From Streptomyces umbrinus (lineage in GTDB: Bacteria; Actinomycetota; Actinomycetes; Streptomycetales; Streptomycetaceae), in contig NZ_JAUSZI010000002.1 in NCBI RefSeq assembly GCF_030817415.1, positions 11,569,501-11,633,500 of the forward strand: 64,000 bases of DNA, written 5' to 3'. The notes under the pieces are model-generated. The model did no database searches, had not been told where the DNA came from, and saw only the letters and a program-made list of their open reading frames with translations. This document shows, piece by piece, positions 2 through 3,538 of the stretch; the stretch's first letter is position 1; every line of letters starts with the position of its first letter. A program made the position numbers and the translations under genes.

Positions 2-1606
2 GAACTCGCCGCCGCCTGGGGAGGGCTGCACTGTCTGGAGCGCATGACACAGCAGCAAAGATCCGCCCTCCAGGCCTACCGCACCCACATGGCCTCCTAC
101 GGCAAGGGCAAAGGCAAGCACGCGGGCTACTACCGTGCGGCCGCCCACGACGCCATGAAGGTCGCCCAGGAGGCCGTGCCTGCCTGGGTCATGCCGATCT
201 CCCAGGTCGCCGAGATGGTGCAGTCCAAGCGGGATGCCTTCGACGTCGTGATCGTCGACGAGGCAAGCCAGGCGGGCATGGACGCACTCTTCCTGCTGTG
301 GCTCGCACCCCGCGTCATCGTCGTCGGCGACGACAAACAATGCGCACCCGCAACCAGCGGAAAGGGCCGGCATCAGGCCATCCATGACCGCCTGGCCGCC
401 CACCTGCCGGACATGCCCCCCGCGCTGCGCGCCCTCTACTCGCCCACCAGCAACCTCTACCAGCTGCTGTCGACGTTCTTCCCGAAGGTCATCCGCCTCG
501 AAGAACACTTCCGTTGTATGCCCGAAATCATCGGCTGGTCCTCCCTGACCTTCTACGACAACAAGCTGCAGCCCCTGCGCCAGTACGGCGGCGAACGGCT
601 TGACCCGCTGCTCACTCATTTCGTGGAAGGAGCCGTCACCCAGGGCCGTGACAGCCGGCTGCGCAACCCCAAAGAGGCCGACGCCATTGTCGACTGCCTT
701 GCCGAACTGGTCGACGATCCCGCTTACCGGGACAAGACCATGGGAGTGATCACCCTGCAAGGGCCCGTCGGGCAGGTCCAGCTCCTGGACGGGCTGATCA
801 AGAAGCGCCTGCCCGCACCGGTCCGTGAACGCCATCAGATCCGCGTCGGCAACCCGGCATCGTTCCAGGGCGATGAACGCCACGTCATTCTCCTGTCCAT
901 GGTCACCGCCGACCCGCCACGGATCGCCGGCGGCCACAGAAGCGAACGCCAGGCCTACAACGTTGCCGCCTCACGTGCCCAGGACCAGATGCGCCTGTTC
1001 TACTCGGTGCCCCCCGACCGCCTCAAAAGCGGCGACCTGCGCCTCAACCTCCTCACCTACATGCAAAACCCGCCTGCCGCACTGGCCACCGCCGACTCCC
1101 TCGGCCTTGTTCCGAGCGACGTCCGGCGCCCGCTCTTCGAACAGCACGTCTACCTGCGGCTGAAGGACCGTGGCTACCACGTGATCCCGCAGTACCCGGC
1201 AGGCAGCAAACGCATCGACCTCGTCGTCGTGGGCGCCCGAGGGCGTCTCGCCGTGGAATGCGACGGTGACTACTACCACTCGTCGACCGAGCAGATCTGC
1301 CACGACCAGCAACGCGACCGTGAACTACAGCGCGTGGGCTGGAAGTTCTGGCGCATCCGCGAAAGCGAGTTCCGCTACGACCCCGACGAGGCACTGACCG
1401 GGCTGTGGGAGGAGCTGGACCGTCACGGCATCCATCCCGCCGAATTCCGCGCCACCCCACCGTCCGCTGCCTCTGCCGGACCCATCTGGACCCCTCTCAG
1501 TCTCTCCTCGGACGACCACGTGCTCGAGGAGGAACCCGAAGACCTCTCCTCTGCCGACGCACTCGTGGACGACAGCGCCCACCATCACGCGGAAGGCGAA
1601 GCATGA
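2..1606 (+). CDS. SF1 helicase with C-terminal Vsr/DUF559-like nuclease domain (5' end outside window)
   Basis: The frame is open to the left edge, so the N-terminus, including the Walker A region, is missing. The first in-window ATG is at 44. What remains is the back half of a UPF1/DNA2-like superfamily 1 helicase. It has a Walker B-type VIVDEASQAG, a motif III VVVGDDKQ, LEEHFRCMPEI (motif IV), ASFQGDE (motif V) and YNVAASRAQDQ (motif VI). The last ~170 residues hold a Vsr/DUF559-type nuclease fold with VECDGDYYH, a following D..R and the GWKFWRIRESEF strand. The stop overlaps the next start as ATGA, so the downstream HEPN gene is translationally coupled. Helicase-nuclease fusions beside HEPN proteins occur in anti-phage systems (family knowledge). 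A defence role here is inference. Confidence 0.85.
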   Translation, partial: ELAAAWGGLHCLERMTQQQRSALQAYRTHMASYGKGKGKHAGYYRAAAHDAMKVAQEAVPAWVMPISQVAEMVQSKRDAFDVVIVDEASQAGMDALFLLWLAPRVIVVGDDKQCAPATSGKGRHQAIHDRLAAHLPDMPPALRALYSPTSNLYQLLSTFFPKVIRLEEHFRCMPEIIGWSSLTFYDNKLQPLRQYGGERLDPLLTHFVEGAVTQGRDSRLRNPKEADAIVDCLAELVDDPAYRDKTMGVITLQGPVGQVQLLDGLIKKRLPAPVRERHQIRVGNPASFQGDERHVILLSMVTADPPRIAGGHRSERQAYNVAASRAQDQMRLFYSVPPDRLKSGDLRLNLLTYMQNPPAALATADSLGLVPSDVRRPLFEQHVYLRLKDRGYHVIPQYPAGSKRIDLVVVGARGRLAVECDGDYYHSSTEQICHDQQRDRELQRVGWKFWRIRESEFRYDPDEALTGLWEELDRHGIHPAEFRATPPSAASAGPIWTPLSLSSDDHVLEEEPEDLSSADALVDDSAHHHAEGEA

Positions 1607-2442
1607 CGCAGCAGCCTGTCCTCGGCTCCCTGGACACCAACACCCTGGAAGAAGTCGCTCGCGTCATCTGCGGCGACGACCACCTCTACTACCGCAAGGG
1701 CTACGAGATCGGCCGCTTCCTGGAACGCGCCGGCTGGAAACGCGTGGCCGACTACGACGGCGAATACCGCAAGGACTGGACCCATGAGCTCCTCACCGAA
1801 CGCCGGGAGGACCCCAGCGAACTGGAGAAAGTGCTGCTCAGGCTCGCCGACCCACTGGAGTACCTCGACGAACCCCAACAACTCCCCAACGTGATCGCCG
1901 CAATCAACACCTTCCTCGTCCACGAGGGGTACCGCCTGGAGAATCCCGGCGGGCGCCCCCGCCTTGTCACCTGCGACCCGTCCCTCGCCTACCCCGGCCA
2001 GCATGCTCCGGTCGAACTCAAAGCCGTCCTGACCGACATCATCGACGATCCGGCCATGGCACAGCTCCTTCAACGGCGCCTCGACGAAGCGCGCACCTGC
2101 CACGCCAACGGCGCCCACGTCGCCGCCATCATCATGCTCGGCAGTCTCCTCGAAGGCGTCCTGCTCACCACCGTCCTGGCCCGCGCCCCGTCACTCCTGG
2201 GTTCCACGCCACCAGGACAGGTCTCGCTGAAAACCCTGATCGACGTCTGCCACCGAGTCGGCTGGCTCGACGCGGACGTCGACAGGTACGCCCACGAACT
2301 GCGCGAATACCGTAACTACGTCCACCCTCACAAAGAAATCCGCGAGGCGCACACCCCGGACCACGACACCCTGAATGTTGCCTGGCAGGTCGTCAACGCA
2401 GCTCTCAACGACCTTGCCACCCCCAAGCCCGGCACCCGGTAG
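1603..2442 (+). CDS. HEPN-domain protein coupled to the helicase-nuclease
   Basis: The protein has 279 residues and starts at the ATG overlapping the upstream stop. The N-terminal ~130 residues are charged and match nothing I recognise. The C-terminal half is helical and contains an R-x6-H motif, R234-EYRNYV-H241, typical of HEPN ribonuclease-type domains, with a helix AIIMLGSLLEGVLL before it. HEPN proteins are RNases or nucleotidyl-transfer partners in toxin-antitoxin and abortive-infection modules. Coupling to a helicase-Vsr protein suggests a two-component defence effector (inference). It might instead be a non-catalytic C-terminal HEPN of the Abi/DUF4145 type, but the R...H pair is intact. 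Confidence 0.7.
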   Translation: MTQQPVLGSLDTNTLEEVARVICGDDHLYYRKGYEIGRFLERAGWKRVADYDGEYRKDWTHELLTERREDPSELEKVLLRLADPLEYLDEPQQLPNVIAAINTFLVHEGYRLENPGGRPRLVTCDPSLAYPGQHAPVELKAVLTDIIDDPAMAQLLQRRLDEARTCHANGAHVAAIIMLGSLLEGVLLTTVLARAPSLLGSTPPGQVSLKTLIDVCHRVGWLDADVDRYAHELREYRNYVHPHKEIREAHTPDHDTLNVAWQVVNAALNDLATPKPGTR

Positions 2443-2880: not shown

Positions 2881-2903
2881 GCGGGATGGAAAGGAGTACG
2901 ACG

Positions 2904-3161
2904 ATGTCCGATGCCAACGTCCGTATCCCCGAGGAAGCCAAGGCCCGGCTCGCCGCTATCGCGGCCGCTGAGGGGCTGTCGCTGCGCGCATATCTCGCCC
3001 GTCTCGCTGAGACGCTGCTGACTCCGGGCGAACGTGCCGAACGCGCGGAGAAGGCCCTGGCCGCGCTGAAGGAGTGGAACGGCTACGCCCCGACCACTGC
3101 CGAAGAGCAGGACCTGGACAGCGAGCTGGACCGGCGCCTGGCCCAGGTGACCGGCCAGTGA
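2904..3161 (+). CDS. VapB-like ribbon-helix-helix antitoxin
   Basis: The protein has 85 residues. The ATG at 2904 is chosen because AAGGAG lies seven bases upstream; an in-frame ATG at 2886 precedes that site. The N-terminus (MSDANVRIPEEAKARLAAIA) is the beta strand plus helix of an RHH DNA-binding domain, followed by GLSLRAYLARLAETLL. The acidic C-terminal tail (EEQDLDSELDRRLAQV) would wrap the toxin. Its stop overlaps the toxin GTG as GTGA. It should neutralise the PIN toxin and repress from the adjacent palindrome (family knowledge). Confidence 0.85.
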   Translation: MSDANVRIPEEAKARLAAIAAAEGLSLRAYLARLAETLLTPGERAERAEKALAALKEWNGYAPTTAEEQDLDSELDRRLAQVTGQ

Positions 3162-3538
3162 GCGACGCCATGCACATCGTCCTGGACGACACCGCGATGG
3201 CCGCAGCCGGCCAGGGTAATGTCCTCGCCTCCCGACTCATCCACCGCGCCCACGCCGAATCAGGCTGGTTCCTGTACGCCCCGGCCTGCGCGTTAGTCGA
3301 AGCCGATCGTGCCCGGCCCGGCACAGCGGAGCATCTGGCTTCCCTGCCGGGCATCACTGTCCTCGATCTGGACCTGGCCGCCGCCCTGGCCGTCGCGCGG
3401 CACAGGACGTGGGCCGCGGCGCACAGCCAGTACGCGGCGCTGCCCACCCCGGATCGTCCCGACGGCGCGATCGTCGCCACCACCGCACCGACCCGGTGGG
3501 CAGGGGAGCCGGTCCGCGTACTGGACCTCAACCCCTGA
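3158..3538 (+). CDS. VapC-like PIN-domain toxin
   Basis: The protein has 126 residues from the overlapping GTG; an ATG at 3170 would give 122. PIN features are visible: an N-terminal acidic strand IVLDDTAM, a conserved Glu in ACALVEADR, and the late acidic motif PDGAIVATT matching the D-x-x-I-A signature. The fold coordinates Mg2+ for RNA cleavage, usually of tRNA or rRNA. Proximity of the acidic residues, the RHH partner upstream and the shared operator make a type II toxin-antitoxin assignment secure. The target is unknown. It sits directly behind the helicase/HEPN genes, so it may stabilise that module (inference). Confidence 0.82.
   Translation: MSDAMHIVLDDTAMAAAGQGNVLASRLIHRAHAESGWFLYAPACALVEADRARPGTAEHLASLPGITVLDLDLAAALAVARHRTWAAAHSQYAALPTPDRPDGAIVATTAPTRWAGEPVRVLDLNP

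Follow-up and report, generated by a model that had tools for sequence, protein, structure and literature searches.

Gene pairs and single proteins that join helicase, nuclease and HEPN

The named NCBIfam proteins most similar to the helicase considered here, ProA (NF058533, presumably the Prometheus of DefenseFinder) and Hhe (NF042953, PADLOC Hhe), are anti-phage proteins, and their trait, an SF1 helicase plus an MTES_1575 nuclease, is found here as well. Three proteins exceed the ProA cut-off among 198 genomes. Two of them (L144, L145) are single chains made up of HEPN_Swt1, DUF4011, helicase, MTES_1575 and DUF3320; thus, the ProA kind can combine these functions in one protein, as an earlier note on this DNA had stated for known systems. 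The third (L146), which has 1,601 aa and whose match begins at position 355, seems too short, its N-terminal HEPN being apparently missing. Giant single-chain proteins with HEPN, transglutaminase, SF1, Vsr and wHTH domains are described by Anantharaman et al. 2013 (PMC3710099); they share the helicase–Vsr core with the studied pair, in which HEPN is a separate gene.

Two further systems are comparable in their mode of action. In restriction-modification (R-M) systems with a linked HEPN RNase, such as PrrC, which is encoded with PrrI, the R-M enzyme keeps the RNase inactive, and disabling that enzyme sets it free (PMC3710099). The studied pair would resemble the PrrC/PrrI Type Ic R-M system in that a machine for DNA restriction holds a HEPN RNase whose gene accompanies it, but it has no ABC ATPase, and the partner is a helicase-nuclease without a methylase. 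Hachiman (HamAB; PMC12278908) would work similarly through a helicase sensor and a separate effector nuclease, although this effector is unrelated to the HEPN protein.

Both ProA and the studied pair contain an SF1 helicase, an MTES_1575 nuclease and HEPN. However, the HEPN_Swt1 domain of the ProA chains L144 and L145 is N-terminal and fused, whereas the pair has a DUF4145-like HEPN with its own N-terminal domain, encoded by a separate 3' gene. Hhe has the same core of helicase and Vsr-type nuclease, but it is a single protein. The best NCBIfam match of the intact helicase from the genome under study (locus L004, below) is ProA, with 176.3 bits against the curated cut-off of 1500, and Hhe follows with 123 bits against 2000; L025, a locus with a second type of helicase, reaches 808 bits for ProA, also below 1500. 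PDC-S37 is the best PADLOC match for both (175.5 bits in L004, 851.6 in L025). The Mokosh proteins MkoA (122.5 bits) and MkoC (117.5 bits) have their best stretch in the helicase part of L004. No HEPN family, and hence no fused HEPN_Swt1, occurs among the best 25 of 31 Pfam matches of L004; the studied HEPN aligns to HEPN_Swt1 at the motif only, and it lies beside the ProA-like helicase in none of the 12 ProA-family loci that were read.

Judged by its domains, the pair looks like a split form of one-protein anti-virus systems, but is not simply ProA or Hhe cut in two, as its HEPN belongs to another subfamily and is in the 3' position. Of the split, uncatalogued architecture suggested in the earlier note, the two genes and the missing model for HEPN hold: the HEPN proteins of the window and L004 match no NCBIfam model at E<=1, and in PADLOC those of the window and L025 match nothing, while that of L004 matches only REase_II (E 0.0026 over 47 residues). 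In the passages and listings of the mostly open literature searched, no two-gene unit consisting of a helicase-MTES_1575 gene and an independent HEPN gene is described.

A decayed copy in the window and an intact copy in the same genome

The window, the whole analysed stretch of 64,000 nucleotides, comes from contig 2 (11569501-11633500) of the 12.4-Mb genome of Streptomyces umbrinus. An open frame of 534 aa enters from its left edge, followed by an intact HEPN frame (Table 1). The earlier reading of the first gene as an SF1 helicase with a C-terminal Vsr/DUF559-like nuclease is borne out by AAA_12, MTES_1575 and DUF559 (Pfam E 1.3e-5); the end of AAA_11, including DEASQ, scores 22.2 bits, below the cut-off of 27. 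The second gene was rightly described as ATGA-coupled, its ATG overlapping the TGA of the helicase frame, GCATGACG, and as carrying an R-x6-H motif, seen as R234 and H241.

Table 1. Positions of the genes and domains discussed; residues are those of the frame named
Feature	Sequence	Coordinates	Strand	Remarks
3' part of broken SF1B (UPF1-like) helicase-nuclease gene	window	2..1606	+	retains motifs II-VI; upstream of the window, motif I (Walker A) is lost
AAA_12, second RecA-like domain of helicase	window	482..991	+	Pfam, frame residues 161-330, E 5.2e-17
MTES_1575, Vsr-like restriction-endonuclease domain	window	1136..1417	+	Pfam, frame residues 379-472, E 8.9e-31
HEPN protein, 279 aa	window	1603..2442	+	intact open frame; ATGA overlap with preceding gene
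N-terminal domain of HEPN protein	window	1603..1983	+	six helices and a beta hairpin
HEPN domain, DUF4145-like	window	2041..2424	+	
R234-E-Y-R237-N-Y-V-H241 motif	window	2302..2325	+	R-x6-H, inner invariant R
Intact helicase, 1,569 aa	L004	8951-13660		AAA_11, AAA_12, MTES_1575
Intact HEPN protein, 278 aa	L004	13657-14493		
Unnamed ~470-aa family	L004	15786-17435		
Unnamed ~470-aa family	L053	8957-10390		
Unnamed ~470-aa family	L025	2215-3987	-	
Sister helicase	L027	4764-11210	-	
Sister helicase	L030	5687-11620		
Sister helicase	L034	5150-10381	-	

An intact copy of the pair, with 78% DNA identity to the window copy, is located at 3.07 Mb of contig 2 (L004). The start of its helicase was assumed to be TTG, a start about 20 codons later being equally likely. 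Sequence matches of this helicase in the PDB (n=18) begin with '5'-3' RNA helicase-like' chains (8ftm) and include a putative deoxyribonuclease (9kwf), SMUBP-2, UPF1, NAM7, Sen1, and DNA2; by these matches it is a UPF1-like SF1 helicase. Upstream of the intact pair (L004 5798-7947) are an AbiEii nucleotidyltransferase (E 1.7e-13) and a match to the PADLOC candidate PDC-S66 (36 bits), and because of these two genes the pair may sit in a defence island.

Contrary to the expectation that upstream sequence would complete the window helicase gene, it stays incomplete when 12 kb are added upstream (L003). In the numbering of the intact 1,569-aa paralogue, L003 7211-7696 corresponds to residues 565-727. 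A transposon of 3,449 bp (L003 7693-11141) follows after residue ~727, the helicase resumes from L003 11135 at residue 726, and an in-frame TAG is found at L003 11459. Residues 1-564, with Walker A, are absent from L003; when the whole genome was searched with them (71 of 71 candidates scored), the intact copy was the only hit apart from two helicases that match weakly (34% and 42%). The transposon encodes a DDE_Tnp_4 transposase (Pfam, L003 8410-9249), has unusually long inverted ends of 211 nt that are 99% complementary, and lies between short direct repeats (read by eye); two further open frames that were scanned have no Pfam match. The locus retains a 698-aa frame with motifs II-VI and the nuclease. 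The window helicase is a pseudogene, and the locus is a decayed relic, not the working two-gene system that had been proposed for it. Our best explanation, to which as a whole we give moderate confidence, takes the window copy for a duplicate, now in decay, of an operon whose two genes are conserved elsewhere.

The HEPN protein was compared in an alignment of 31 family members (A1), with identity down to 32%. H241, R237, and V240 are invariant in 31 of 31, and R234 is arginine in 29, with lysine in P0100 and P0112. R234-x6-H241 agrees with the R-x4-6-H pattern of the HEPN superfamily, and this canonical spacing arises only via R234, as the invariant R237 gives R-x3-H. The shorter pattern R[ND]x[VA]H is present in the HEPN frame at 79 of 80 loci. 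Pfam DUF4145, from the HEPN clan, is below its gathering score of 23.1 bits both in the window (15.5) and in L004 (21.8), and is matched by 23 of the 31 members at E<=0.05. In an AlphaFold model, residues ~147-274 can be aligned with HEPN structures (VIA-align); a Foldseek search with the model gave no match at E<=0.001 (best E 0.69), and a sequence search of solved structures with the family gave none at E<=0.1. The structural alignment, the DUF4145 matches, and the motif support the HEPN fold predicted for the second protein in the earlier note, and the protein is probably an RNA-cutting ribonuclease. Its N-terminal domain weakly resembles AbiJ_NTD3 and death-fold domains. AbiJ_NTD3 matches two of the 31 members weakly (best E 0.029), and hhalign gives E 0.0061 but a probability of 6% over 111 columns.

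Conservation of the pair, its neighbours and its helicase groups

Pairing of the two genes, for which the earlier note proposed a survey, is conserved. In a sample of 150 Streptomyces genomes, including the one under study, HEPN occurs in 11 genomes as 12 copies, and in all 12 the gene immediately before it is a helicase-MTES_1575 gene or what remains of one. Nine of these helicases look intact; the other three, in the window, G148, and G053, are broken or split. A helicase match was found in at least 16 of the 150 genomes, a lower bound because three helicase candidates were scored per genome. In a collection of one genome per species, which shares some genomes with the Streptomyces sample, the best 80 of 104 confirmed relatives were examined, and 73 of these loci have the helicase: 64 at full length, with motif I and nuclease, and 9 partial (short contigs, split frames, truncation); 7 have none. 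Some of the helicases that look split, in either sample, may be draft-assembly errors. All 64 loci with a full-length helicase, 28 after dereplication, have a full-length HEPN, and 27 of the 64 allow a 4-nt start/stop overlap, the start nearest such an overlap having been taken by the script. The HEPN gene counted alone is narrowly distributed: a sample of 293 genomes of the order contains it in 19, and one of 296 genomes of the class, searched with another member as the query, in 4. A phage collection contained no match to the HEPN family; viral contigs gave none with a single-protein query and two distant partial matches with A1.

Some HEPN relatives have other surroundings. Two distant family members adjoin Type I R-M genes, without a helicase: in Thermosulfurimonas (L113), the gene is part of a Type I R-M operon, flanked by HsdM and HsdS; in an Omnitrophota MAG (L117), a short contig carries it 0.3 kb downstream of an HsdM gene. 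In a Stahlbacteria MAG (L118), it is near a contig end, again without a helicase. Broken or truncated HEPN genes without a helicase are found in L077 (= G649), L079, L083 (= G659 contig 23), and L130, and G717 and G712 contain HEPN fragments only; G649, G717, and G712 have no helicase match. In L072 and L091, as in the window, an intact HEPN frame adjoins a helicase remnant without motif I.

Plasmids also carry relatives. One distant relative is in the Prevotella plasmid record NC_022111.1 (97% coverage, 23.5% identity). There (locus L157, 6995-9312), it ATGA-overlaps a gene for a caspase-like protein (MALT1-like, E 1e-13), and upstream of these two are what we take to be conjugation genes. 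On the linear 939-kb plasmid NZ_CP108821.1 of Streptomyces chartreusis (L156), the pair adjoins TIGR02677-TIGR02680 genes, presumably of the Wadjet type.

The toxin-antitoxin pair that had been noted downstream of the HEPN gene (window 2886-3538) is a possible one: a ParD-like match scores 19.1 bits, below the cut-off of 27.3, and the short partner gene has no Pfam match. Among the 28 dereplicated loci it has no support as part of the system; the only neighbour recurring in at least 5 of them is another family, which a second neighbour row overlaps. This unnamed third family near the pair, of ~470 aa, is present in 23 of the 64 full loci and 10 of the 28 dereplicated ones (among these, one fragmented member and one at a distance of 1.8 kb), and its position differs, three arrangements being seen. 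For 7 of the 12 Streptomyces copies, 80-425 nt separate it from the pair, against 1.6 kb at the intact copy of this genome; it occurs in 27 of the 150 genomes and is near the pair in 8 of these. The window and L003 contain no significant match to it. In Pfam, nothing better than E 0.09 is matched by four members, the L004 member has no PADLOC match, and a profile of 16 members finds nothing in the PDB better than E 0.11.

Among 84 aligned helicase relatives, motifs I, II, III, and VI are conserved, and the catalytic-type D, E, and D of the nuclease are kept in 83, 79, and 82; this conservation is overstated because the set was mostly selected for motif I and nuclease and includes near-duplicates. 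The helicase detection HMMs were built from some of the same loci. A second helicase group with HEPN (G002, G059) bears DUF4011, as scanned in L025, and its HEPN is only ~33% identical. The main-group helicases L004 and L020 show neither DUF4011 nor DUF3320 (in L004, among the best 25 of 31 Pfam matches), while an hhalign comparison of N-terminal profiles for DUF4011 (A2 against A3) gives a probability of 97.5% at 12% identity in a gapped alignment. In a FastTree phylogeny with midpoint root, the main HEPN-paired group is beside helicases with a GreA/GreB-like end, and the second is among ProA-like helicases without a HEPN partner; two groups of helicases thus carry the pairing. The sister helicase-MTES_1575 proteins (1,744-2,149 aa) are found in 8 of the 150 Streptomyces genomes. 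All three tested end in a GreA/GreB-like domain, above the Pfam cut-off only in L027 (31.1 against 26.9 bits), and no HEPN of the studied family was found beside these helicases.

A possible mechanism and its alternatives

We consider it fairly probable that the two-gene operon would act as a phage defence in which attack on DNA precedes cleavage of RNA. The helicase-nuclease would bind invading or damaged DNA, translocate on it and cut it, while holding or recruiting the HEPN protein, whose N-terminal domain may be adaptor-like. Engagement of DNA, or a failed attack on it, would release or activate the HEPN protein; once freed, it would cleave RNA, so that translation stops and the phage cannot multiply. 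We place DNA attack first and RNA cleavage second because the HEPN family is found beside Type I R-M genes and behind helicase-nucleases, which suggests the logic of PrrC; the anti-phage role, complex formation, RNA cleavage, and this order are inferred from sequence. In favour of the model are the conserved pairing and gene coupling, the kept helicase and nuclease residues, the UPF1-like helicase matches, and the HEPN fold. The anti-phage relatives ProA and Hhe argue for defence and, in single loci, so do the TIGR02677-02680 genes and AbiEii. Against the model are the narrow distribution of HEPN, the lack of matches among phages with only two distant partial ones in viral contigs, the window DUF4145 score below cut-off, the non-significant Foldseek result, and the R-x3-H spacing of R237. 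A strictly obligate pair fits poorly because intact HEPN frames adjoin helicase remnants in the window, L072, and L091.

A broader but tentative explanation is that HEPN is a portable suicide effector, composed of a death-fold or AbiJ-NTD-like adaptor and an RNase domain. It would have been joined more than once to unrelated machines that sense DNA or act as proteases: SF1 helicase-Vsr proteins of two separate groups, enzymes of Type I R-M systems, and a protease resembling caspases. Many sensors would then share a single family of effectors.

We find it rather unlikely that HEPN is a nucleic-acid-binding or assembly subunit instead of an RNase, with DNA degradation alone providing defence. 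Some HEPN domains are non-catalytic (PMC3710099), and a motif read from the invariant R237 would be R-x3-H. However, R237, V240, and H241 do not vary across the 31 members, R234 hardly does, and the motif recurs at 79 of 80 loci; moreover, the unrelated partners of the family (Type I R-M, the caspase-like gene) suit an effector better than a helicase subunit.

The possibility that the operon is a toxin-antitoxin unit, in which the helicase protein counteracts HEPN as a free toxin, appears improbable. HEPN toxins are common, and all actinomycete HEPN copies found here without an adjacent helicase are broken or truncated (L077, L079, L083, L130, G717, G712, with the remnant in G324 outside this count), but the HEPN frames beside the helicase remnants in the window, L072, and L091 are intact. 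The window case is not decisive here because the intact paralogous helicase could act in trans.

There is little to recommend the idea that the truncated window pair is itself functional, with HEPN acting alongside the C-terminal half of the helicase and its nuclease: the 698-aa frame with motifs II-VI and nuclease and the intact HEPN frame would allow it, whereas the lost Walker A, the transposon in the gene, and the in-frame TAG oppose it. That the helicase merely serves DNA repair or housekeeping and HEPN is a bystander, as the UPF1/IGHMBP2-like matches might suggest, is very hard to reconcile with HEPN in only 11 of 150 Streptomyces genomes, its duplication and decay within one genome, the tight coupling in 64 full loci (28 dereplicated), and best named relatives that are anti-phage.

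If the preferred DNA-attack-then-RNA-cleavage explanation is true, searches for one-chain ProA/Hhe proteins would miss a split version whose HEPN gene is present in 11 of the 150 sampled Streptomyces. The pair would then provide a small, separable HEPN effector, and its control by a DNA helicase-nuclease would be directly testable, since either the sensor or the effector can be deleted while the other is kept. Since members of the same effector family also lie beside Type I R-M genes, the restraint of R-M-linked HEPN RNases would become testable outside PrrC.
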